Below, piece by piece: positions 9,321 through 42,128 of a stretch of 45,000 nucleotides of DNA. The notes beneath the pieces were generated by a model that did no database searches, had not been told where the DNA came from, and saw only the letters and a program-made list of their open reading frames with translations. Where the stretch lies: assembly GCF_900291465.1 (NCBI RefSeq), contig NZ_LT985808.1, forward strand, positions 3,567,079-3,612,078. Reading direction: 5' to 3'. Source of the DNA: Bacteroides sp. Marseille-P3684. Lineage in GTDB: Bacteria > Bacteroidota > Bacteroidia > Bacteroidales > Bacteroidaceae. Made by a program: the position numbers and the translations under genes. Each line of letters opens with the position of its first letter. Positions within the stretch are counted from its first letter, which is position 1.

Positions 9321-11312
9321 TTATCTACCACGCAATGTAAATTCAGTTGCTGTGCCATTTCTCAATGCGCCTACCGTTGTAGTGGCGGTATATCTATTAC
9401 TATATCTGAAAGTTATTTGCGTATCGTCATCATAATCGGCTAAAATATCCAATCCAAGGTCAGCTTTACCCTGCGAACCAACCGTCAACGTTTCAATCTC
9501 CGTTGTTTGTCCCCAACCTGAGGGCACTATTACTTGAACCTGTCCATTGTTAGGTACATTCTGAGTATTTCCATAATACCCTCCATATTTAAATGTCAAC
9601 GATAATATGACAGGTTCCGGATTCGTAAAGCTCAACAACTCATGTTCCGCGAACAAGTCGCTCGACACCTTAATCTGCGTAGCACTCTCTGCGATATTCG
9701 ACAAGAAATGGAACTCAAAGGTGCGATTGGCTGTCGTTTCATATTCCTCTTGCGTGATGGTAGCCACATAGTCGAACGAAGAATTTTCGTGCAAGCGGAC
9801 AGGCAGACGGTTCTTCTCAACATCGGGATAGATGGTCTTCTTGATGGGTTCGATGTAGAACTCCAAGGGGAAGACTGACTGCGGAAGATTCTCCGGCAAT
9901 TGAAGCGTGACGGTTTGCGGAGTTCCTGCCTCTGCATCAATCTGGGGGATACAGCTAGCTGTAAACTCGAACGGCGTACGTACATTGACAGTAACCCGAC
10001 GGGATAATCCTTCGTCACTAATCACAATGAATTCCTGTGTTTGCATGGAGGCAGGCAACGGATCAGCCGGAATGATGGTTATCGTTCCGTCCTCATTGCA
10101 TTTGATTTCCTTTACAGCCTCATGATTATAGCCGCCTTCATCGTCTCCGTCAACCGGCACGGCATTCACATGGTCGTTTGCCGGCTTTCCGTCAATCGTG
10201 TAATTGTAGTTCAGGGTATATGCGTCCGTTGATACCAACATGATGTGGAGCTTGTCGACACTCAACTCACGTCCTACATTGTCCTCGATGCGGTTTACCT
10301 CGCTGACTTCGACAGAAGCTGAAATGTTGTTGGACGCTGCCGCGTTCATGGCTTCCTCAATGCTATCATATCCCTTGCTCTCCACGTTGCCTATAATCAC
10401 ATGATAGGCAAAGTTGCGATACAGATTGAGGTAGGAAGTAACGCCCGTAGTCGCATCGCTGCTGACAATGTCCAGCTTATAATAACATGTAGCCCCATTG
10501 AAGTCTGCTTTCACAAGGATATAGACCGGAGCATCCGAATCATCCTGATTGCGTTCGTACACGTATTTGGGTTCTGGCGTGAATTCGTCCGCTTCGGGTG
10601 CACTCTCATCTATCTCTCCACAAGTGACACCGGGATACCGTTCGTTTTTTTCACGGAAGGTTGCATACACATCATCCGCTGTGTCCAGTCCCTCGAACTT
10701 CGCAAAGCCACTGCCCGTGTATGGAGCCACGGTTCCTTCGTTGGTTTCATTTACAAGGGCATAACCTAAAAGCGTAAAGTTCTCGTTTCTGCCCTCACCT
10801 TTCGTAACACTGATCTTGGCAAAGTTGCGCACCAGCTTGACAGTCTCCAACTTCGTATTTTTCGTAATGCCATCCTTGACTGTCAAATGTCCCCAATAAG
10901 CATCCACACCGTCCTTCACAGTCAGGTTGCTAAAGATGCTTACTTCATTCGCCGCCGGGGAATACGTACCGAACGTAACATCTCCCAAGACGAAATGCAA
11001 AGAAACATCCGCGTCAGACTTGGGCAAATTGACCGTATAAGTGCCTTGGTTACCCACAAAACTGTTTACGGTCGCCACCTGGTTGGCTATAAAGAATCCG
11101 TTTTCATCGAAGACCAACACACGCATCGGCATCTGCATTACGTCCTGAGGTTGGTCGCCCAAAGCACGGGAAGCCACAACCGGTTCCGGAATCGTAACCG
11201 TAAATTGATACTCATCCGGTTGCAGCGTCGGTGAACTCACCAATTCGTCCTGCTGACAAGCTGTTGCCAGCAAGAGCATCAACATACTTATATAGGTATA
11301 TATCTTTTTCAT
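9321..11312 (-). CDS. Fimbrillin-like lipoprotein, probable minor or tip subunit
   Basis: A 663-residue protein with a lipoprotein signal peptide (LLLATAC, lipidated Cys19). The mature protein starts with an extended acidic stretch, then a beta-rich domain with VVASRALGD around Arg49, and a segment (about 60-110) typical of Mfa/Fim subunits (PMRVLVFDENG, a first beta-sandwich strand pair). The rest is a series of beta domains without recognisable enzyme motifs. It is the last gene of the operon, 21 bp after the gene before it, so it is probably a late, low-copy subunit at the fimbrial tip. The exact Pfam family cannot be fixed by eye; the C-terminal half could be an adhesin. Confidence 0.75.
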   Translation of the reverse strand: MKKIYTYISMLMLLLATACQQDELVSSPTLQPDEYQFTVTIPEPVVASRALGDQPQDVMQMPMRVLVFDENGFFIANQVATVNSFVGNQGTYTVNLPKSDADVSLHFVLGDVTFGTYSPAANEVSIFSNLTVKDGVDAYWGHLTVKDGITKNTKLETVKLVRNFAKISVTKGEGRNENFTLLGYALVNETNEGTVAPYTGSGFAKFEGLDTADDVYATFREKNERYPGVTCGEIDESAPEADEFTPEPKYVYERNQDDSDAPVYILVKADFNGATCYYKLDIVSSDATTGVTSYLNLYRNFAYHVIIGNVESKGYDSIEEAMNAAASNNISASVEVSEVNRIEDNVGRELSVDKLHIMLVSTDAYTLNYNYTIDGKPANDHVNAVPVDGDDEGGYNHEAVKEIKCNEDGTITIIPADPLPASMQTQEFIVISDEGLSRRVTVNVRTPFEFTASCIPQIDAEAGTPQTVTLQLPENLPQSVFPLEFYIEPIKKTIYPDVEKNRLPVRLHENSSFDYVATITQEEYETTANRTFEFHFLSNIAESATQIKVSSDLFAEHELLSFTNPEPVILSLTFKYGGYYGNTQNVPNNGQVQVIVPSGWGQTTEIETLTVGSQGKADLGLDILADYDDDTQITFRYSNRYTATTTVGALRNGTATEFTLRGR

Positions 11313-33071: not shown

Positions 33072-34568
<1,497 letters not shown>

Positions 34569-34617
34569 GCCGGCAAGGGCTTTCGTCATAGCACAAACAT
34601 AACGCAACATAATAAAT

Positions 34618-34660
34618 CGAAAAGAGGGTGTGTCATCCGGCACATCCTCTTTTCGATTTT
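34618..34660 (+). terminator. Terminator after guaB
   Basis: CGAAAAGAGG (34618-34627) pairs with CCTCTTTTCG (34646-34655), extended inside by GTGTG/CACA, followed by ATTTT. It may also stop tracrRNA read-through from the other side. Confidence 0.8.
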
Positions 34661-34708
34661 ATCTCCATACGTTCGCCCCACAACGTTCCGAGGACGTATC
34701 CGAAGCAC

Positions 34709-34733
34709 AAAAAAAGCCCCTCCGAAGAGGGGC
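34709..34733 (-). terminator. tracrRNA terminator
   Basis: GCCCCTC/GAGGGGC, a 7-bp stem with a TTCG tetraloop (34716-34733), followed by seven Ts in the minus direction (34715-34709). Both an intrinsic terminator and the last stem of the tracrRNA. Confidence 0.9.
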
Positions 34734-34786
34734 GTAGGAGAAAACTCCTTCGGCATATAGCCTTATTGCGATAAGATGTAGATCTT
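34709..34786 (-). ncRNA. tracrRNA of the type II-C CRISPR locus
   Basis: Divergent from cas9. Reading the minus strand: AAGATCTACATCTTATCGCA forms the anti-repeat. UCUACAUC pairs with repeat bases 11-18 (8 bp), then a 2x2 U-U internal loop, then AUCGCAAU pairs with repeat bases 1-8 (8 bp with two G-U pairs). After this come AAGGCUAUAUGCCG (a short nexus hairpin, much like other type II-C tracrRNAs), GGAG-UUUU-CUCC, and a terminator GCCCCTC-TTCG-GAGGGGC followed by seven Ts. The predicted RNA is about 78 nt if it starts some 7 nt after the -7 box. The anti-repeat orientation fixes array transcription as plus strand. Confidence 0.9.
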
Positions 34787-34792
34787 ATGGCA

Positions 34793-34824
34793 CAAATGTA
34801 ACAACTCATTTTGTCATATACAAG
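34793..34824 (-). promoter_or_regulatory. tracrRNA promoter
   Basis: Minus strand CTTG (34821-34824), 20-bp spacer, TACATTTG (34793-34800), a full -7 match. The expected start near 34786 is exactly where pairing with the repeat begins. The element lies across the cas9 promoter. Confidence 0.7.
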
Positions 34825-34840
34825 TTTATTCCTAGTTTTA
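34810..34840 (+). promoter_or_regulatory. cas9 promoter
   Basis: TTTG (34810-34813), 19-bp spacer, TAGTTTTA (34833-34840), one mismatch to TAnnTTTG; 24 bp before the cas9 ATG. Its -33 box lies in the spacer of the tracrRNA promoter and vice versa. Confidence 0.6.
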
Positions 34841-34864
34841 TAGACAACTTTTAATCACACAACC

Positions 34865-37800
34865 ATGAGTAAACGCATACTAGGAATCGATGTAGGTACC
34901 AACAGCCTGGGGTGGGCTGTCGTTGACCGCACAAACTGTGACAATTATACCCTTGTCAAGAGAGGAGATGTGATATTCCAAGAAGGAGTAAACATCGAAA
35001 AGGGAAATATTGAAAAGTCAAGAGCTTCAGAGCGCACCGGGCATCGGAGCACCCGGAAGCATTATTTCAGAAGGAGGATGCTGAAAATAAAAGTGCTGGA
35101 GATACTTGTCGAACATCAGTTATGCCCCTATCTCTCCCACGAGGAACTGCACCAGTGGATGACGCGTAAGGTCTACCCTACTAACGAAGACTTCCGCCTG
35201 TGGTTACGGACCAACGATGCCAACGACCAGAACCCCTATCATGACAGGCATGTCTGCCTGCATGAACGGCTGGACCTCCGTCTGCAGGAGAACCGGTACA
35301 GACTGGGAAGAGCACTCTATCACCTGGCACAACGCAGGGGATTCCTCAGCAACCGACTGGAACAGAAGAGCAATACCGATGAAACCGGGGCTGTAAAGTC
35401 TGACATTTCCCAACTGAACGAGGAAATGGAAAAAGCAGGTTGCCAATACCTGGGCGATTATTTCTACCGGCTCTATCAGGAATGCGGCAATCAAGTCACC
35501 CTGCGCGCCCGATACACCGACCGAATACAACATTATCAGAAAGAGTTCGAAGCCATCTGCCAAAGACAGCAACTGGGCGACGAACTTGTCGACAAGCTGA
35601 GAAGAGCCATCTACTTCCAGCGTCCGCTGAAATCACAGCGCGCAGGTGTGGGAAAATGTACCTTTGAACCGGACAAACCGCGTTGCGCCCTGTCCCATCC
35701 GCGGTATGAGGAATTCCGCATGCTGTCTTTTCTCAACAATGTCAAGGTAAAAGGTCCGTCGGATGACAGCCTGCGTCCGTTGAGCCCCTCGGAAAAGGAG
35801 AAAATCAAGCCTTTGTTCTTACGCAAGTCAAAAGCCAACTTCGACTTTGAGGATATAGCCAAGGCCATCGCCGGCAAAGGCAAATATGCCTGCATCCGGG
35901 ACAAAGAGGGAGCACAGAAACCCTACCAGTTCAACTATGCCCTTAGTCAAGGCGTCAGCGGATGCCCGGTCACGGCAAAGCTGACAGCCGTCTTCGGAGA
36001 GTCTTGGGAGCGCAACCTCGTCAATGCCTACCGCAGCCGGAACGATACGCGGAAATCGGACGAGGAGATTGTCAACGAAGTTTGGAACGTATTGTACTCA
36101 TTCTCATCCAAAGAGAAACTCCGCGCATGGGGCATGGAGAAACTGGGACTGGACGAAGCCTGTGCCGGAGAATTTGCCGACATCACACTGCCGGCAGCCT
36201 TTGCTGCACTCAGCTTGAAAGCCGTCAACAAGATACTGCCTTTCCTGCGTCAGGGATTCATCTATTCGCATGCAGTGATGCTGGCAAACATACCTTATAT
36301 TATAGGTATGGACAGGTGGAACGACCCCAGGCAACGTCAGTTCATCATGGACAACCTGCAAGAGCTGTTGGATAACTTCACTGCATCCGACAAGGCATTG
36401 CAACAGACCCTGGACTTCTGCATCAAGGACTTCCTGCTCAACAACTACGAACTGGCTCCGGGAAAAGCAGACCGGCTCTACCACCCCTCAATGATTGAGA
36501 CATACCCGGATGCAAAGGCAGACGGACAGGGCATCTACCAACTGGGCTCTCCTGCAACAAACGCCATACGCAACCCGATGGCCATGCGCTCGCTACACAT
36601 CCTGCGAAGGGTCGTCAACCAACTGCTTAAAGAAAAGACTATTGACTCCGAAACGGAAGTCCACATTGAATATGCCCGTGAATTGAATGACGCCAACCGA
36701 CGTTGGGCCATCAACCAGTGGCAACGTGAACAGGAAACCCGACGCAAAGATTATGCCGAGAAGATTCGGAAAGTTTATGCTGACGAGTTCGGAAAAGTCA
36801 TCGAACCGACCCAAGAGGAGCTTCTGAAATACCAGCTCTGGGAGGAGCAGCAGCACCTGTGCCTGTATACCGGGGAACAAATCGGACTGACGGATTTCAT
36901 CGGCCCCAACCCCAGATATGACATCGAGCACACCATACCACAAAGTATGGGAGGCGACAGCACACGGATGAACCTGACGCTGTGTGAGCGGACATACAAC
37001 CGAACGGTGAAAGGCAACAGGATGCCGTCGCAACTGGCGGAACATGAAAGCATCCTGACGCGGATAAAACCTTGGAAAGACAAATACGAAGAGCTGACCG
37101 TCAAAATAAATAAACTCCGTACGCATCCCGGCATGGACAAAGCATCGAAAGACAACATCATCCGCAAAAGGCATCTGCTGGAACTGGAACGTGACTACTG
37201 GTTCCAGAAATACCAGCGATTCACGATGACTGAAGTCCCTGAAGGGTTCAGCCTGAGACAAGGGACCGGTATCGGATTGATTGGCAAATATGCAGGGCTG
37301 TTCCTGAAATCGCTCTTCCACCATGTCAAAGAGCGCAACCGGAAACAGGTCTACGTCATCAAGGGCCCCATCACGGCTGAATTCCGCAGATTGTGGGGAC
37401 TGCAGAACCTCTACGAACAGAAGTCACGGGACAACCATGCCCACCATTGCATCGACGCAATCGTCATTGCCTGCATCAATCCTACGGAATATGCACGGAT
37501 GGCATCCTACTACCGACAGGAAGAAGACTTCCGACTGAACAAGGGAAACAAACCTGTATTCCCAAAACCTTGGGCTACCTTCACACAGGACCTCCAAGCA
37601 CTGGAAGCAGAACTTCTGGTCGTACATGAGACACGGAACAACCTGACAAAGAAGACCCGTAAGAGAGTCCGGACAAAGGGCGGAAATGTCCTGTCAGAAA
37701 GCGACAGTGCACGCGGAAGCCTGCACAATGACACCTATTATGGAGCAATCCAAAAGGATGGCGTCATAAGGTATGTCGTGCGCAAAGCGCTGAGCTCCTT

Positions 37801-38542
37801 AAGCGAAAAGGACGTGAAAGACATTGTCGACAAGACTGTACGGGAGAAAGTGCAGGCGGCTATCCAGGAAAAGGGATTAAAAGAAGCACTTGCCGGCACC
37901 ATCTATATGAACGAGGAGAAAGGCATCACCATCAAAAAGGTAAGATGCTTCACCAAAATCGCCTCACCACTGGCTATACGCAGGCACCGCGACGCTTCAG
38001 CGAAAGAGTACAAGCGGCCCTATTATGTCACGAATGAGTCGAACTATGTCATGGGAATTTATGAAGGGTGCATCAAGAAAAAGACCAAGCGTGAATTCAT
38101 CCTGGTAAATAATCTGGAAGCCGTGCGACAACTCAAGACGGCACGAAAACAAGGCGTCGTCAGCTCGATACTGCCTCCCGTAAGTGCGAAGTCGCAATTC
38201 CCCTTGAAATACAGGTTGTACACGGGAACTCTGGTGCTGCTCTATGAGAACTCTCCGGAAGAAATCGATTTCACCAATCAGGCAGACATCTGCAAACGGC
38301 TTTACAAAGTCACTGGACTGTCTTCCATGACTGTAACCGGGAATCAGTATGGCACAATCCAACTGAGATACCATCAGGAAGCCCGGCAGGCAAAGGACCT
38401 AAAAGCCCAGAATGGAGCCTATAAAGAGGGTGAAGAACATCGCCCCGTCATTTTCCTGTACCATACACAATTTAAAGCCCTGGTTGAAGGTACCGATTTC
38501 CGCATGAATATCTTAGGAGAGATTGAGCCTCTCCGAAAATAA
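34865..38542 (+). CDS. cas9: CRISPR-associated endonuclease Cas9, type II-C
   Basis: A 1,225-residue RNA-guided nuclease. RuvC-I holds Asp9 (ILGIDVGTNSLGWA); the Arg-rich bridge helix is at about 51-80; RuvC-II has Glu602 (VHIEYARE); HNH has His689 in YDIEHTIPQS with probable Asn712; RuvC-III has His861 and Asp864 (HHCIDA). All catalytic residues are therefore present and the protein should cut both strands. The C-terminal about 250 residues should bind the PAM and are the least conserved. The absence of csn2 and cas4, and the divergent tracrRNA, indicate type II-C. The PAM cannot be read from the sequence. cas1 begins 65 bp downstream. Confidence 0.97.
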   Translation: MSKRILGIDVGTNSLGWAVVDRTNCDNYTLVKRGDVIFQEGVNIEKGNIEKSRASERTGHRSTRKHYFRRRMLKIKVLEILVEHQLCPYLSHEELHQWMTRKVYPTNEDFRLWLRTNDANDQNPYHDRHVCLHERLDLRLQENRYRLGRALYHLAQRRGFLSNRLEQKSNTDETGAVKSDISQLNEEMEKAGCQYLGDYFYRLYQECGNQVTLRARYTDRIQHYQKEFEAICQRQQLGDELVDKLRRAIYFQRPLKSQRAGVGKCTFEPDKPRCALSHPRYEEFRMLSFLNNVKVKGPSDDSLRPLSPSEKEKIKPLFLRKSKANFDFEDIAKAIAGKGKYACIRDKEGAQKPYQFNYALSQGVSGCPVTAKLTAVFGESWERNLVNAYRSRNDTRKSDEEIVNEVWNVLYSFSSKEKLRAWGMEKLGLDEACAGEFADITLPAAFAALSLKAVNKILPFLRQGFIYSHAVMLANIPYIIGMDRWNDPRQRQFIMDNLQELLDNFTASDKALQQTLDFCIKDFLLNNYELAPGKADRLYHPSMIETYPDAKADGQGIYQLGSPATNAIRNPMAMRSLHILRRVVNQLLKEKTIDSETEVHIEYARELNDANRRWAINQWQREQETRRKDYAEKIRKVYADEFGKVIEPTQEELLKYQLWEEQQHLCLYTGEQIGLTDFIGPNPRYDIEHTIPQSMGGDSTRMNLTLCERTYNRTVKGNRMPSQLAEHESILTRIKPWKDKYEELTVKINKLRTHPGMDKASKDNIIRKRHLLELERDYWFQKYQRFTMTEVPEGFSLRQGTGIGLIGKYAGLFLKSLFHHVKERNRKQVYVIKGPITAEFRRLWGLQNLYEQKSRDNHAHHCIDAIVIACINPTEYARMASYYRQEEDFRLNKGNKPVFPKPWATFTQDLQALEAELLVVHETRNNLTKKTRKRVRTKGGNVLSESDSARGSLHNDTYYGAIQKDGVIRYVVRKALSSLSEKDVKDIVDKTVREKVQAAIQEKGLKEALAGTIYMNEEKGITIKKVRCFTKIASPLAIRRHRDASAKEYKRPYYVTNESNYVMGIYEGCIKKKTKREFILVNNLEAVRQLKTARKQGVVSSILPPVSAKSQFPLKYRLYTGTLVLLYENSPEEIDFTNQADICKRLYKVTGLSSMTVTGNQYGTIQLRYHQEARQAKDLKAQNGAYKEGEEHRPVIFLYHTQFKALVEGTDFRMNILGEIEPLRK

Positions 38543-38607
38543 CCGGGTTTCGTGTTGCGCATATCCGAGCTCATAAACAATTCAATAACCTATAAAACAC
38601 AAATGCC

Positions 38608-39495
38608 ATGTTAAAACGAAGTCTAGTCTTTGAAAATCCCGTTATCTTACGGCTGAAGGATAAACAACTTGTCGTATCCTTTAAGGAACTGCCTGATGAA
38701 AAACGTACGATTCCCATCGAAGACATAGGCTTCGTTTTAATCAATCACCCCATGGTATCCATCTCGATGCCCCTACTGAATGAGCTTGCTTCCAACAATA
38801 TAGCAGTTGTATTCTGTGACGAGAAGGGATTGCCACAGTCCATGTTGCTCAATTTTGATTCCAACCTCACCCAAGGGAAGATTATCAGTGAACAGCTCGT
38901 TGCCGGAGAAGTCTTGAAGAAGAATTTGTGGAGGCAGATTATAGTCTCCAAAATCAAGAACCAAAGCCTGCTTCTGAATAAGCTGGGACTTGACGGAGAG
39001 TCTTTGAAGCCCCTGTACATGAATGTAAAATCCGGAGACAGCGACAATAAAGAAGGTATTGCAGCCAGACTGTATTTCAAGACTTTGTTCGGAAAGGAGT
39101 TCACCCGTGACCGTAATGCCGGTGGGATCAATGCCTTCCTGAATTATGGATATGCCATTTTGCGGGCAGCTACAGTCAGGGCAGCTCTTAGTTCCGGCTT
39201 ATTCCCTGCCCTGGGCATTTTTCATCATCACAGGAGCAATGCTTTTCCATTGGCTGATGATATCATGGAACCATTCAGACCCTTCGTAGACGAAATAGTC
39301 TATGACTTGTTCCGACAGAACCAATCTGAACTTACCAAAGAAAATAAGGGTAAGCTGATAGCATCCCTGTATTGTGACACCTATTACGAAAAAGTTACCC
39401 GTCCACTTTCCGTTGGACTTTCCATCACGATGGCCTCTTTGGCCAAATGCTACATCAATGAACACAAAACACTCAACTTACCGTCGGTCAAATGA
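38608..39495 (+). CDS. cas1: CRISPR-associated integrase Cas1
   Basis: A 295-residue integrase that, with Cas2, inserts new spacers at the leader end. The metal-binding residues are in place: Glu149 (KEGIAARLYF), His206 (GIFHHHRSN) and Glu221 (LADDIMEPFRPF); the 149/206/221 spacing matches type II Cas1. The last 4 bp overlap cas2 (ATGA), so the two are translationally coupled. Confidence 0.97.
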   Translation: MLKRSLVFENPVILRLKDKQLVVSFKELPDEKRTIPIEDIGFVLINHPMVSISMPLLNELASNNIAVVFCDEKGLPQSMLLNFDSNLTQGKIISEQLVAGEVLKKNLWRQIIVSKIKNQSLLLNKLGLDGESLKPLYMNVKSGDSDNKEGIAARLYFKTLFGKEFTRDRNAGGINAFLNYGYAILRAATVRAALSSGLFPALGIFHHHRSNAFPLADDIMEPFRPFVDEIVYDLFRQNQSELTKENKGKLIASLYCDTYYEKVTRPLSVGLSITMASLAKCYINEHKTLNLPSVK

Positions 39496-39830
39496 GCGAA
39501 CTAAGACTTAATGCATATCATATCATGTGGTTATTTGTAATGTTTGACCTGCCAACCACAACCAAGAAAGAACGAGGATTGGCAGCCAAGTTCCGAAAAA
39601 GCCTGGAAAAAGATGGTTTCACACGCTTTCAATACAGCGTCTACATCCGCTTCTGCGGGTCTTTGGAAAGTTCCAAAGTCCATATCAAACGGGTAAAATC
39701 ATGTGTTCCGCCTAAAGGCTCTGTAAGCATTTTGTCTGTCACAGACAAGCAATACTCCAACATCATCAACATTTGGGGTGAAATTGAGAAAAAGGCTTAT
39801 CCGGAACCACAACAACTAGAATTTTTTTAA
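39492..39830 (+). CDS. cas2: CRISPR-associated protein Cas2
   Basis: A 112-residue protein with the ferredoxin-like Cas2 fold: the first strand WLFVMFDLPT with Asp19, then RFRKSL-type helix and FTRFQYSVYIRFCGS. It bridges the Cas1 dimers in the integration complex. The start overlaps the cas1 stop. The array leader begins right at its stop codon. Confidence 0.96.
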   Translation: MSELRLNAYHIMWLFVMFDLPTTTKKERGLAAKFRKSLEKDGFTRFQYSVYIRFCGSLESSKVHIKRVKSCVPPKGSVSILSVTDKQYSNIINIWGEIEKKAYPEPQQLEFF

Positions 39831-39920
39831 TATTTTTGTTTCCAACAAAGCTCTTCATTTCGCAATTGTATCGCCATTATTGAACTTAATCATTGATTAT
39901 GAATCAAATAAAGCGCATAC
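39831..39920 (+). promoter_or_regulatory. CRISPR leader with promoter element
   Basis: This 90-bp AT-rich leader starts with TATTTTTG (39831-39838), a full -7 match that begins one base after the cas2 stop; no good -33 box is visible. A short inverted repeat TTGATT-ATG-AATCAA (39893-39898 with 39902-39907) lies 13 bp before the first repeat and may be a leader-anchoring signal for Cas1-Cas2. The leader side is assigned here because cas2 is adjacent and the one variant repeat is at the far end. Confidence 0.65.
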
Positions 39921-42128
39921 GTTGCGGTTTGATGTAGAATATTGATAAGGAACAACATAGTTATTAATCAGCGGAGTGAATGCATTCGTTGCGGTTTGAT
40001 GTAGAATATTGATAAGGAACAACCATGGCTTTTCAAGTAAGATTCAGTTTTTAGTTGCGGTTTGATGTAGAATATTGATAAGGAACAACTACATACTCTA
40101 CACGGTACAGGATGTTGTAGTTGCGGTTTGATGTAGAATATTGATAAGGAACAACCTGGATAGCGAAGAACGGAATCGCGGAAAAGTTGCGGTTTGATGT
40201 AGAATATTGATAAGGAACAACACGCAAGCGAGCGAAAGCGGCAGTGTTTAGTTGCGGTTTGATGTAGAATATTGATAAGGAACAACGTTTGAGCCAGCAG
40301 AAGCGACACCAGCAAGTTGCGGTTTGATGTAGAATATTGATAAGGAACAACACGCTACGGCGGCACAGGCTACGCTGTCTAGTTGCGGTTTGATGTAGAA
40401 TATTGATAAGGAACAACTCGTTCCATCTATGTTATGCAGTAAATGCAGTTGCGGTTTGATGTAGAATATTGATAAGGAACAACTCAAATTCTTGATTCAT
40501 CGCGACCTGTCGCGTTGCGGTTTGATGTAGAATATTGATAAGGAACAACTACCCCTTTTCGATTCAGCAATGGACTATCGTTGCGGTTTGATGTAGAATA
40601 TTGATAAGGAACAACTCGGCATTTTCGTAAGATTTCATAATTGTAGTTGCGGTTTGATGTAGAATATTGATAAGGAACAACTATCCCAATCCCGTTCGGC
40701 TAACCGTCGGAGTTGCGGTTTGATGTAGAATATTGATAAGGAACAACTAATGCAAGTGGAACATCAACCTATGAGTAGTTGCGGTTTGATGTAGAATATT
40801 GATAAGGAACAACTTGGCGAGTTCGCCCTGGCACGCGAACTGGGTTGCGGTTTGATGTAGAATATTGATAAGGAACAACTCGTCGGCTGAACATCATAGG
40901 CATGTTGGTGTTGCGGTTTGATGTAGAATATTGATAAGGAACAACCAGTCGAAGACCATCGAGAGCATCTTCGGAGTTGCGGTTTGATGTAGAATATTGA
41001 TAAGGAACAACTTGCGCGGCTTCGGCCTTGGCGGCAATTTCGTTGCGGTTTGATGTAGAATATTGATAAGGAACAACAATAAGGAAGCAACAATACGTTA
41101 GGCGTGGGTTGCGGTTTGATGTAGAATATTGATAAGGAACAACCGGTAGTAAAACAGCCAGGGGCTGGAGTCGTTGCGGTTTGATGTAGAATATTGATAA
41201 GGAACAACTTTATCTAGTACATTAGCATTTTCATCTAAGTTGCGGTTTGATGTAGAATATTGATAAGGAACAACCTCGTAATGCCGTGGACGCTCCGCTC
41301 TCTAGTTGCGGTTTGATGTAGAATATTGATAAGGAACAACACATTATTTACAGGTAGTCCGGCGTCAAGGTTGCGGTTTGATGTAGAATATTGATAAGGA
41401 ACAACTTATCAATTATCAGAGAACGTTATCCGGAGTTGCGGTTTGATGTAGAATATTGATAAGGAACAACTATATCATATTCTTATACTCTCTACAGTAG
41501 TTGCGGTTTGATGTAGAATATTGATAAGGAACAACAAGGGGTTGCGCGCCACACAGACCGACCCCGTTGCGGTTTGATGTAGAATATTGATAAGGAACAA
41601 CTTGTTTTGATTCGCGTTTAAAATCCACGTAGTTGCGGTTTGATGTAGAATATTGATAAGGAACAACTCTTTCAACCGGGATACCTGATTAGAGGCTGTT
41701 GCGGTTTGATGTAGAATATTGATAAGGAACAACTGTCGGTCAAGCGTCTGCGCGACGAGTATGTTGCGGTTTGATGTAGAATATTGATAAGGAACAACTG
41801 ACACCCTCCGAGCTCGAGTGGCTCAGGAGTTGCGGTTTGATGTAGAATATTGATAAGGAACAACCCGGGGCAATGTCAATAAACTGAATCAATAGTTGCG
41901 GTTTGATGTAGAATATTGATAAGGAACAACGCAAGGTGAATATAAAAGAGTTGTGACTATGTTGCGGTTTGATGTAGAATATTGATAAGGAACAACCTAT
42001 AGATAAATGGTCAGCGGCGGCCCAACGTTGCGGTTTGATGTAGAATACTGATAAGGAACAACGTCGCGACAAATCATAAAGGCGGACGCGTGGTTGCGGT
42101 TTGATGTAGAATATTGATAAGGAACAAC
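39921..42128 (+). CRISPR. CRISPR array, 34 repeats and 33 spacers
   Basis: A 36-bp repeat (begins GTTGCGGTTTGATGTAG, ends ATAAGGAACAAC) occurs 34 times, from 39921-39956 to 42093-42128. Thirty-three copies are identical; copy 33 (42027-42062) has a T-to-C change at base 22. Spacers: 25 of 30 bp, seven of 29 bp, and the first of 31 bp. No two spacers look alike by eye. The repeat ends (GTTG...CAAC) are complementary. Pairing with the tracrRNA shows it is transcribed on the plus strand. Long periodic reading frames within it are artefacts. Confidence 0.99.

Follow-up and report, generated by a model that had tools for sequence, protein, structure and literature searches.

The minus-strand stretch at 34709-34788 of the window, by which we mean the whole 45,000-nucleotide stretch of DNA that was analysed, is almost certainly, as judged from its sequence and that of its relatives, the tracrRNA of a type II-C Cas9 locus, and the first bases of this RNA probably fold onto the middle of its own anti-repeat as a hairpin that is conserved at the RNA level among related loci. 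The explanation that fits best overall, and in which we have good confidence, is a type II-C tracrRNA with a 5' leader:anti-repeat hairpin whose role may be that of a cap or shield.

The Locus and Its tracrRNA

Open reading frames, Pfam domains and a repeat search define 34865-42128 of the window as a type II-C locus of cas9, cas1, cas2 and a CRISPR array, all on the plus strand. The cas9 frame (34865-38542) encodes 1225 residues, the length given in the preliminary description of this DNA, and contains RuvC and HNH domains; its residues D9, E602, H689, H861 and D864 are invariant in an alignment of five Cas9 proteins (A1), and we take them, by RuvC/HNH motif, to be the catalytic ones. According to Pfam and the reading frames, cas1 (38608-39495) and cas2 (39492-39830) follow, cas4 and csn2 are absent, and the three genes occupy 34865-39830 minus 65 bases. 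The array (39921-42128) has 34 repeats of 36 nt that read GTTGCGGTTTGATGTAGAATATTGATAAGGAACAAC, and a candidate -7 box of the array, TATTTTTG, lies at 39831-39838 on the plus strand as one consensus match, seen in the window only. Comparison of the array spacers with phages matched three records, none of them convincingly. The end of an unverified phage scaffold from human faeces (MT838156.1, 5519-5623; L211) aligns to the window array in five pieces at 74% identity and is probably array-like sequence. Between the IMP dehydrogenase gene and the end of the tracrRNA, a long inverted repeat at 34610-34665, with arms around AAAATCGAAAAGAGG and CCTCTTTTCGATTTT, is probably a terminator.

The tracrRNA would be transcribed divergently from cas9, under a Bacteroidota-type promoter whose -7 box, TACATTTG, matches the consensus TAnnTTTG at 34793-34800 on the minus strand. 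Excerpts of published reports place such a box at -12 to -5 in Flavobacterium psychrophilum (PMC9723704) and centre it on -7 in B. thetaiotaomicron (PMC7366714); because of the former position, the start is predicted at 34788, the fifth base past the box, and the RNA would end in the U run at 34709. Its predicted first transcribed bases, the leader arm AUAAGAU (34782-34788, minus strand, as are all elements of this RNA), are complementary to AUCUUAU at 34771-34777 within the anti-repeat. The anti-repeat itself (34765-34782) faces repeat bases 1-18, the partner of the leader facing bases 7-13 and including both U of a U-U loop at 34773-34774. Folding then gives a nexus hairpin, GGC-UAUAU-GCC (34752-34762), a second hairpin of 5 bp with the loop UUUU (34736-34749), and an intrinsic terminator (34709-34733) made of a 7-bp stem at 34716-34733 and seven U, in agreement with the second hairpin and terminator that had been read after the anti-repeat from the letters alone. 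Nexus, second hairpin and terminator would form the Cas9 scaffold, expression and Cas9 binding being presumed from the family. The marks of a tracrRNA found here are an anti-repeat near cas9 and outside the array, a promoter of its own (by consensus), a nexus and a 3' terminator.

Co-folding pairs repeat bases 1-8 with 34765-34772 and bases 11-18 with 34775-34782, leaving between the helices a 2x2 U-U loop in which repeat bases 9-10 face 34773-34774; this is exactly the duplex of two 8-bp helices that had been proposed earlier. The duplex with repeat bases 1-20 reaches -22.8 kcal/mol, below all of 1000 shuffled repeats (-11.4 ± 2.2, minimum -20.4). As a proof of tracrRNA by itself, duplex energy is ruled out by a second site of the window, near 9825 on the minus strand, which reaches -23.2 kcal/mol; since this energy is not unique in the window, conservation and covariation decide the call. 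Folded alone (82 nt), the window tracrRNA reaches -29.9 kcal/mol, with a z of -4.56 over the whole RNA. In Rfam, no family reaches its gathering score in 34560-34900, and in the whole window rRNA and tRNA alone do so.

Conservation and Covariation with the Repeat

Relatives were gathered by a contig search with an alignment of five Cas9 proteins, from which the best 80 of 158 confirmed relatives were used, and by whole-genome searches, which supplied further Cas9 loci; together with the window this gave 94 loci (the window, 13 genome stretches and 80 contigs). The closest Cas9 among the best 80 of these 158 contig relatives and the genome loci is about 60% identical (L127). The viral contigs searched held no Cas9 relative, and the plasmids (56 records) no such relative at 60% identity or above. 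The tracrRNA core CAATAAGG, used as anchor, occurs at most 330 nt upstream of cas9, on the minus strand, in 92 of the 94 loci, 89 of them distinct. The loci dropped to arrive at 89 were L179, with upstream sequence absent, L156, with the anchor absent in about 200 nt, and the duplicates L182, L192 and L197. L156, which belongs to Candidatus Tidjanibacter faecipullorum, is a Cas9 locus in which the tracrRNA core was not found in the roughly 200 nt upstream of cas9. A TAnnTTTG box stands within 60 nt upstream of CAATAAGG in 88 of the 89 loci, against 4.3 ± 2.1 after shuffling, and place, strand, box, core and terminator are the same in the relatives, which bears out the early claim of a tracrRNA upstream of and divergent from cas9.

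A usable repeat of their own was available for 75 of the 89 loci, in full (36 nt) for 63; for the other 14, the duplex was computed with the consensus repeat and the locus was left out of the pairing counts. The Cas9 trees used in the independent-pairs and tree-aware tests leave out L172, which has a short frame. The RNA would pair with the first 18 repeat bases by means of its anti-repeat, and this layout is supported by both conservation and covariation. Positions 1-8 and 11-18 are paired with the locus's own repeat in 72 to 75 of 75 loci, and the U-U site (positions 9-10) in 5 of 75; with shuffled partners, 57.5 of 75 are paired at position 15 and 61.4 of 75 at position 16. A tree-aware null (74 rows), which redistributes the same number of changes over the Cas9 tree, gives P = 0.002 at position 5, <0.001 at 15, 0.0007 at 16 and <0.001 at 18, and weaker values at positions 8 (0.018), 12 (0.019), 13 (0.025) and 14 (0.059); at position 17, P is 0.007 for association and 0.88 for cells paired. 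The changes can be followed base by base: four of the 75 loci (the window, L127, L141 and L203) have C as repeat base 5, and these are exactly the ones in which the facing base is G; L140, whose own repeat was not found, likewise has G facing position 5. Repeats with GATGATG go with CATCATC anti-repeats in L134, L135, L136, L154, L171, L172 and L195. Among the exceptions, L196 retains A opposite a changed C8, and L096 is mismatched at several positions. The anti-repeat thus changes together with the repeat of its own locus with few exceptions, with tree-aware support at positions 5, 15, 16 and 18, so that the tracrRNA reading withstands the refuting condition named in the preliminary description.

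The Leader and the Anti-Repeat

When the window tracrRNA is folded by itself, its 5' end adopts the hairpin AUAAGAU-CUAC-AUCUUAU, where AA of the leader pairs with the two U that make up the anti-repeat side of the U-U loop. This complementarity of the anti-repeat to the tracrRNA's own 5' end was absent from the preliminary description. The 7-bp hairpin of the window is weak (-3.5 kcal/mol), and in this single locus the stem is unremarkable (shuffled P 0.05). Over the 89 loci, a leader:anti-repeat stem of at least 5 bp is present in 78, against 29.6 ± 4.0 when the leaders are shuffled by single bases, and the summed fold energy is -327.8, against -103.4 ± 10.5. When Cas9 groups of below 70, 60 and 55% identity are each represented by a single locus, stems of at least 6 bp occur in 36 of 53, 17 of 31 and 9 of 17 loci, the shuffled values being 5.7, 3.0 (± 1.5) and 1.7, respectively. 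The same arrangement appears in other letters, as GTAAGA/TCTTAC in relatives, GTGATAA/TTATCAC in L088 and ACAAG/CTTGT in L200-L202, where L201, the sole one with its own repeat, has repeat base 8 changed as well. The arms are rewritten or shifted in L201, in L095 (AAGAAAAAA/TTTTTTCTT, the repeat reading GAAAGAAAAA) and in L092 (GATGTAAA/TTTACATC), and they are lengthened on both sides in L212 (12 bp) and L230 (10 bp).

A 5-bp stem is absent in 11 of the 89 loci: L090, L091, L093, L117, L134, L135, L137, L145, L154, L173 and L195. In L090, L091 and L117, the box is so near that the predicted RNA starts at the anti-repeat. L134, L135, L137, L154 and L195 form one clade with L171, in which the anti-repeat has AA instead of UU; both AA bases pair with the repeat in five of these six loci (those with their own repeat), and in L134, L135, L171 and L195 the pairing runs through the usual U-U site over 18-19 contiguous pairs, suggesting that the U-U loop is not needed by these Cas9 proteins in general. 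Loss of the U-U loop goes along with loss of the hairpin in most of these loci, L171 still having 5 bp; this joint loss is a single event on the tree and suggestive only.

Beyond the close family, the hairpin is patchy. Of 27 distant sources, L121 and L124 gave no match, and L097, L099 and L115 were left out of the remaining 25. Among the 22 distant Bacteroidota loci so obtained, leader stems of 6-8 bp are found in the GATTAAA type, L101-L103 and L105-L107 (individual shuffled P 0.003-0.13), L120 has a weak one of 7 bp that includes wobble pairing (P 0.08), and no convincing leader stem was found in L098, L100, L112, L113, L114, L116, L118 and L119. In some types with 46-47-nt repeats (L119, L120), the anti-repeat is partly palindromic (GTGAAAGACTTTTCAC) and folds alone. 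A covariance model (R1), built from 24 loci selected for equal length, matches the window at 34748-34792 with 58.1 bits; it was used instead of a plain multiple alignment of the leader (A2), in which arms with unequal loops were not aligned. Further R1 searches found matches in 18 of 395 and 9 of 294 genomes. Among these 27 loci, L223 and L237 are without anchor, and L216, L222 and L231 are the same places as the earlier loci L109, L113 and L112; 9 of the 16 that have a box carry a stem of at least 6 bp, against 3.6 ± 1.4 shuffled, a count that may favour the stem because R1 contains it.

The repeat does not explain the covariation at the end of the stem. The anti-repeat base of the end pair stands opposite repeat base 7; this repeat base is G in all 75 loci, a partner that suits U and C alike, so that the repeat cannot drive the U/C change seen in the anti-repeat. 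Scored by the TAAG motif only, with no fitting, an anti-repeat C goes with a leader G in 30 of 30 loci; an anti-repeat U goes with A in 25, G in 10 and T in 2 of 59, the NTAAG leader being absent in 22. In alignment A4, which was fitted to the model structure with some rows forced (e.g., L134), the end pair is AU in 35, GC in 27, GU in 14 and other in 1 of 77 scorable distinct rows, and the second pair is UA in 71, CG in 3 and other in 3. Cells changed on both sides number 34 in A4, against 4.4 ± 6.9 shuffled, and 91.8% of cells are paired, against 25 to 49% in slid versions; the count of further pair types in A4 is not above shuffles (120 of 500 reach its value). The unfitted 24-row alignment A3 has 7 double-change cells, against 2.9 ± 1.2, all within the end pair. 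In the tree-aware test of the leader pair (67 rows), association reaches P 0.001 and cells paired P 0.054, and between the sister loci L168 and L170 a G-C pair is exchanged for A-U, with both sides changed. Of four independent pairs, about three are concordant, none is discordant and one is unchanged (p 0.25, a test of little power). Class-swap energies are informative in one direction only: a CTTAC-class leader on a CTTAT-class anti-repeat weakens the fold (-2.95 vs. -3.98), whereas the reverse, a CTTAT-class leader swapped onto a CTTAC-class anti-repeat, does not (-3.04 vs. -2.90).

Start Site, Mechanism and Alternative Explanations

The extent of the hairpin depends on where the RNA starts. 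An [AG]TAAG arm is present in 65 loci; in 48 of them it starts exactly 4 nt past the -7 box, at the expected +1. With the start at 34788, the bases facing repeat positions 1-6 and 14-17 are free (pairing probability at most 0.02) and those facing 7-13 are paired (0.69-0.99). In models with the start moved 4 nt earlier, three extra pairs facing repeat bases 3-5 appear, the fold deepens from -29.4 to -34.4 kcal/mol, and part of the proposed docking site would be covered. Folded from the end of the box, the 89 loci show a mean pairing of 0.70-0.82 facing repeat bases 7-12, 0.14-0.20 facing 14-18 and 0.21-0.42 facing 1-6. Addition of a 24-nt repeat RNA takes the window fold from -29.9 to -49.2 kcal/mol, and since the hairpin itself is worth -3.5 kcal/mol, the repeat should win over the leader.

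We propose that, before contact with a crRNA, the first seven bases of the tracrRNA fold onto the middle of the anti-repeat as a 5'-terminal hairpin, a step to which covariation lends support. With the predicted start, the repeat could then dock on the free bases facing positions 1-6 and 14-17 and displace the leader. Until that moment the hairpin would cap and shield the free tracrRNA and hold the anti-repeat; that it works in this way, as a cap or latch, is plausible but uncertain. In a bolder and more tentative form, the Bacteroidota type II-C tracrRNA would be self-locked from birth, its 5' bases filling the centre of the anti-repeat and leaving single-stranded toeholds, so that the cognate repeat alone could open it by strand displacement; the anti-repeat would be held by two partners, and the U-U loop would exist because its bases pair in the locked form. 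Leader pairing could thus explain why the U-U "mismatch" persists.

The alternative that fares best is a plain tracrRNA, in which shared ancestry and a conserved promoter +1 region account for the leader complementarity and the hairpin is unselected. Many of the loci are indeed related, the window stem is weak, 11 of the 89 loci are without a stem, and the independent-pairs test is not significant. However, the first two pairs change on both sides, with the tree-aware association noted above, the stem persists in more than half of the Cas9 groups below 60% identity, and the arms are rewritten or shifted in L095, L092 and L201, so that we regard this alternative as unlikely. In tracr-L, an upstream stretch takes the place of the repeat in cis, and the 5' fold could likewise be a natural single-guide RNA like that of S. 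pyogenes, the leader mimicking the repeat in longer transcripts and the preceding bases repressing cas9 in the manner of a short guide. Part of the repeat does recur in the leader arm of Flavobacterium-type loci (GATTAAA) and of L092 (GATGTAAA), and 13 of the 89 loci have another TAnnTTTG farther upstream, against 5.3 ± 2.0 shuffled; nevertheless, the usual box would put the start of the RNA at the arm, leaving no guide, and the arm of the window class is not repeat-like and pairs even at the U-U site, where the repeat does not. This reading is improbable, the more so since tracr-L, according to the portion of a review consulted, has not been found outside subtype II-A (PMC8616872).

Highly improbable, too, is a reading in which the inverted repeat acts as DNA, as an operator through which a regulator controls the tracrRNA or the cas9 promoter, with no RNA structure involved. 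The inverted repeat does sit at +1, between divergent promoters, but in ten loci the end pair consists of a G opposite a U, a combination that interrupts a DNA palindrome and not an RNA stem. For stems of at least 5 bp, the loop length here ranges between 4 and 16 nt, whereas operators usually keep a constant spacing. Finally, the proposal in the preliminary description that this region was once a full repeat and gained a short insertion is extremely unlikely, for although its GTTGTT does stand at 34800-34805 on the minus strand, where it equals the first six bases of the repeat's reverse complement (probability 0.014 in shuffles for one hexamer in one place), and 8 bases in L135 match the end of that locus's own repeat, the last 6 bases of the repeat, reverse-complemented and without mismatch, occur upstream in 3 of 63 loci (1.15 ± 1.05 shuffled), near chance, gapped alignment of the window's upstream 44 nt with the reverse-complemented repeat is no better than shuffles (P 0.60), and the last base (T) of GTTGTT is the first base of the -7 box.

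Significance and Comparison with Known Systems

If the lock formed by leader and anti-repeat is real, the free tracrRNA of these systems is not an open strand. The lock would then bear on tracrRNA stability and on the choice of repeat in genomes with two Cas9 systems, of which the present genome is one, and on guide design, because fused single guides drop the native leader; it would also offer an explanation for a duplex loop otherwise ascribed to Cas9 recognition. The second Cas9 locus of the genome (G000:C1:2118234-2126430, L121) has a frame of 1531 residues and 47-nt repeats, of which 13 copies were found. No anti-repeat above background was found within 20 kb of it, and the genome contains no second significant match to R1 (next best E 3.71). 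With the repeat of this second locus, the window tracrRNA reaches -8.1 kcal/mol, against -22.8 kcal/mol with its own.

The window tracrRNA is probably an ordinary member of a published tracrRNA class. CRISPRCas_38, as described in part of its source, is a Bacteroidetes type II-C tracrRNA model with 578 of 599 instances in Bacteroidetes, typically lies within 100 bases upstream of cas9, and has an anti-repeat that matches the repeats of the arrays (PMC9067536); the window tracrRNA resembles it in placement and taxonomy, a likeness by description and not by model score. The excerpted text on CRISPRCas_38 makes no mention of an intramolecular leader:anti-repeat hairpin, and Fig. 5A of that paper may draw one (PMC9067536). 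Among the matches listed in a literature search over titles and the beginnings of abstracts (figures, supplements and subscription papers being outside its scope), no text describes a self-paired anti-repeat. In the excerpts on diverse Cas9 proteins, catalogue sgRNAs have, as here, a repeat:anti-repeat duplex with or without a bulge, a nexus and 3' hairpins, and they join 16 nt of repeat to the complementary anti-repeat (PMC7606464), a design from which the native leader would be left out. The tracrRNA of S. pyogenes, too, shares with that of the window an anti-repeat, a nexus and terminal hairpins, and its tracr-L, as far as the excerpted sources describe it, belongs to subtype II-A, is transcribed from a promoter further upstream and includes 11 nt that match the cas promoter (PMC8616872, PMC11417352). 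Unlike tracr-L, the window RNA appears to start at the pairing arm, without a guide. The tracrRNA class is already known, and the 5' hairpin appears to occur in many related systems.
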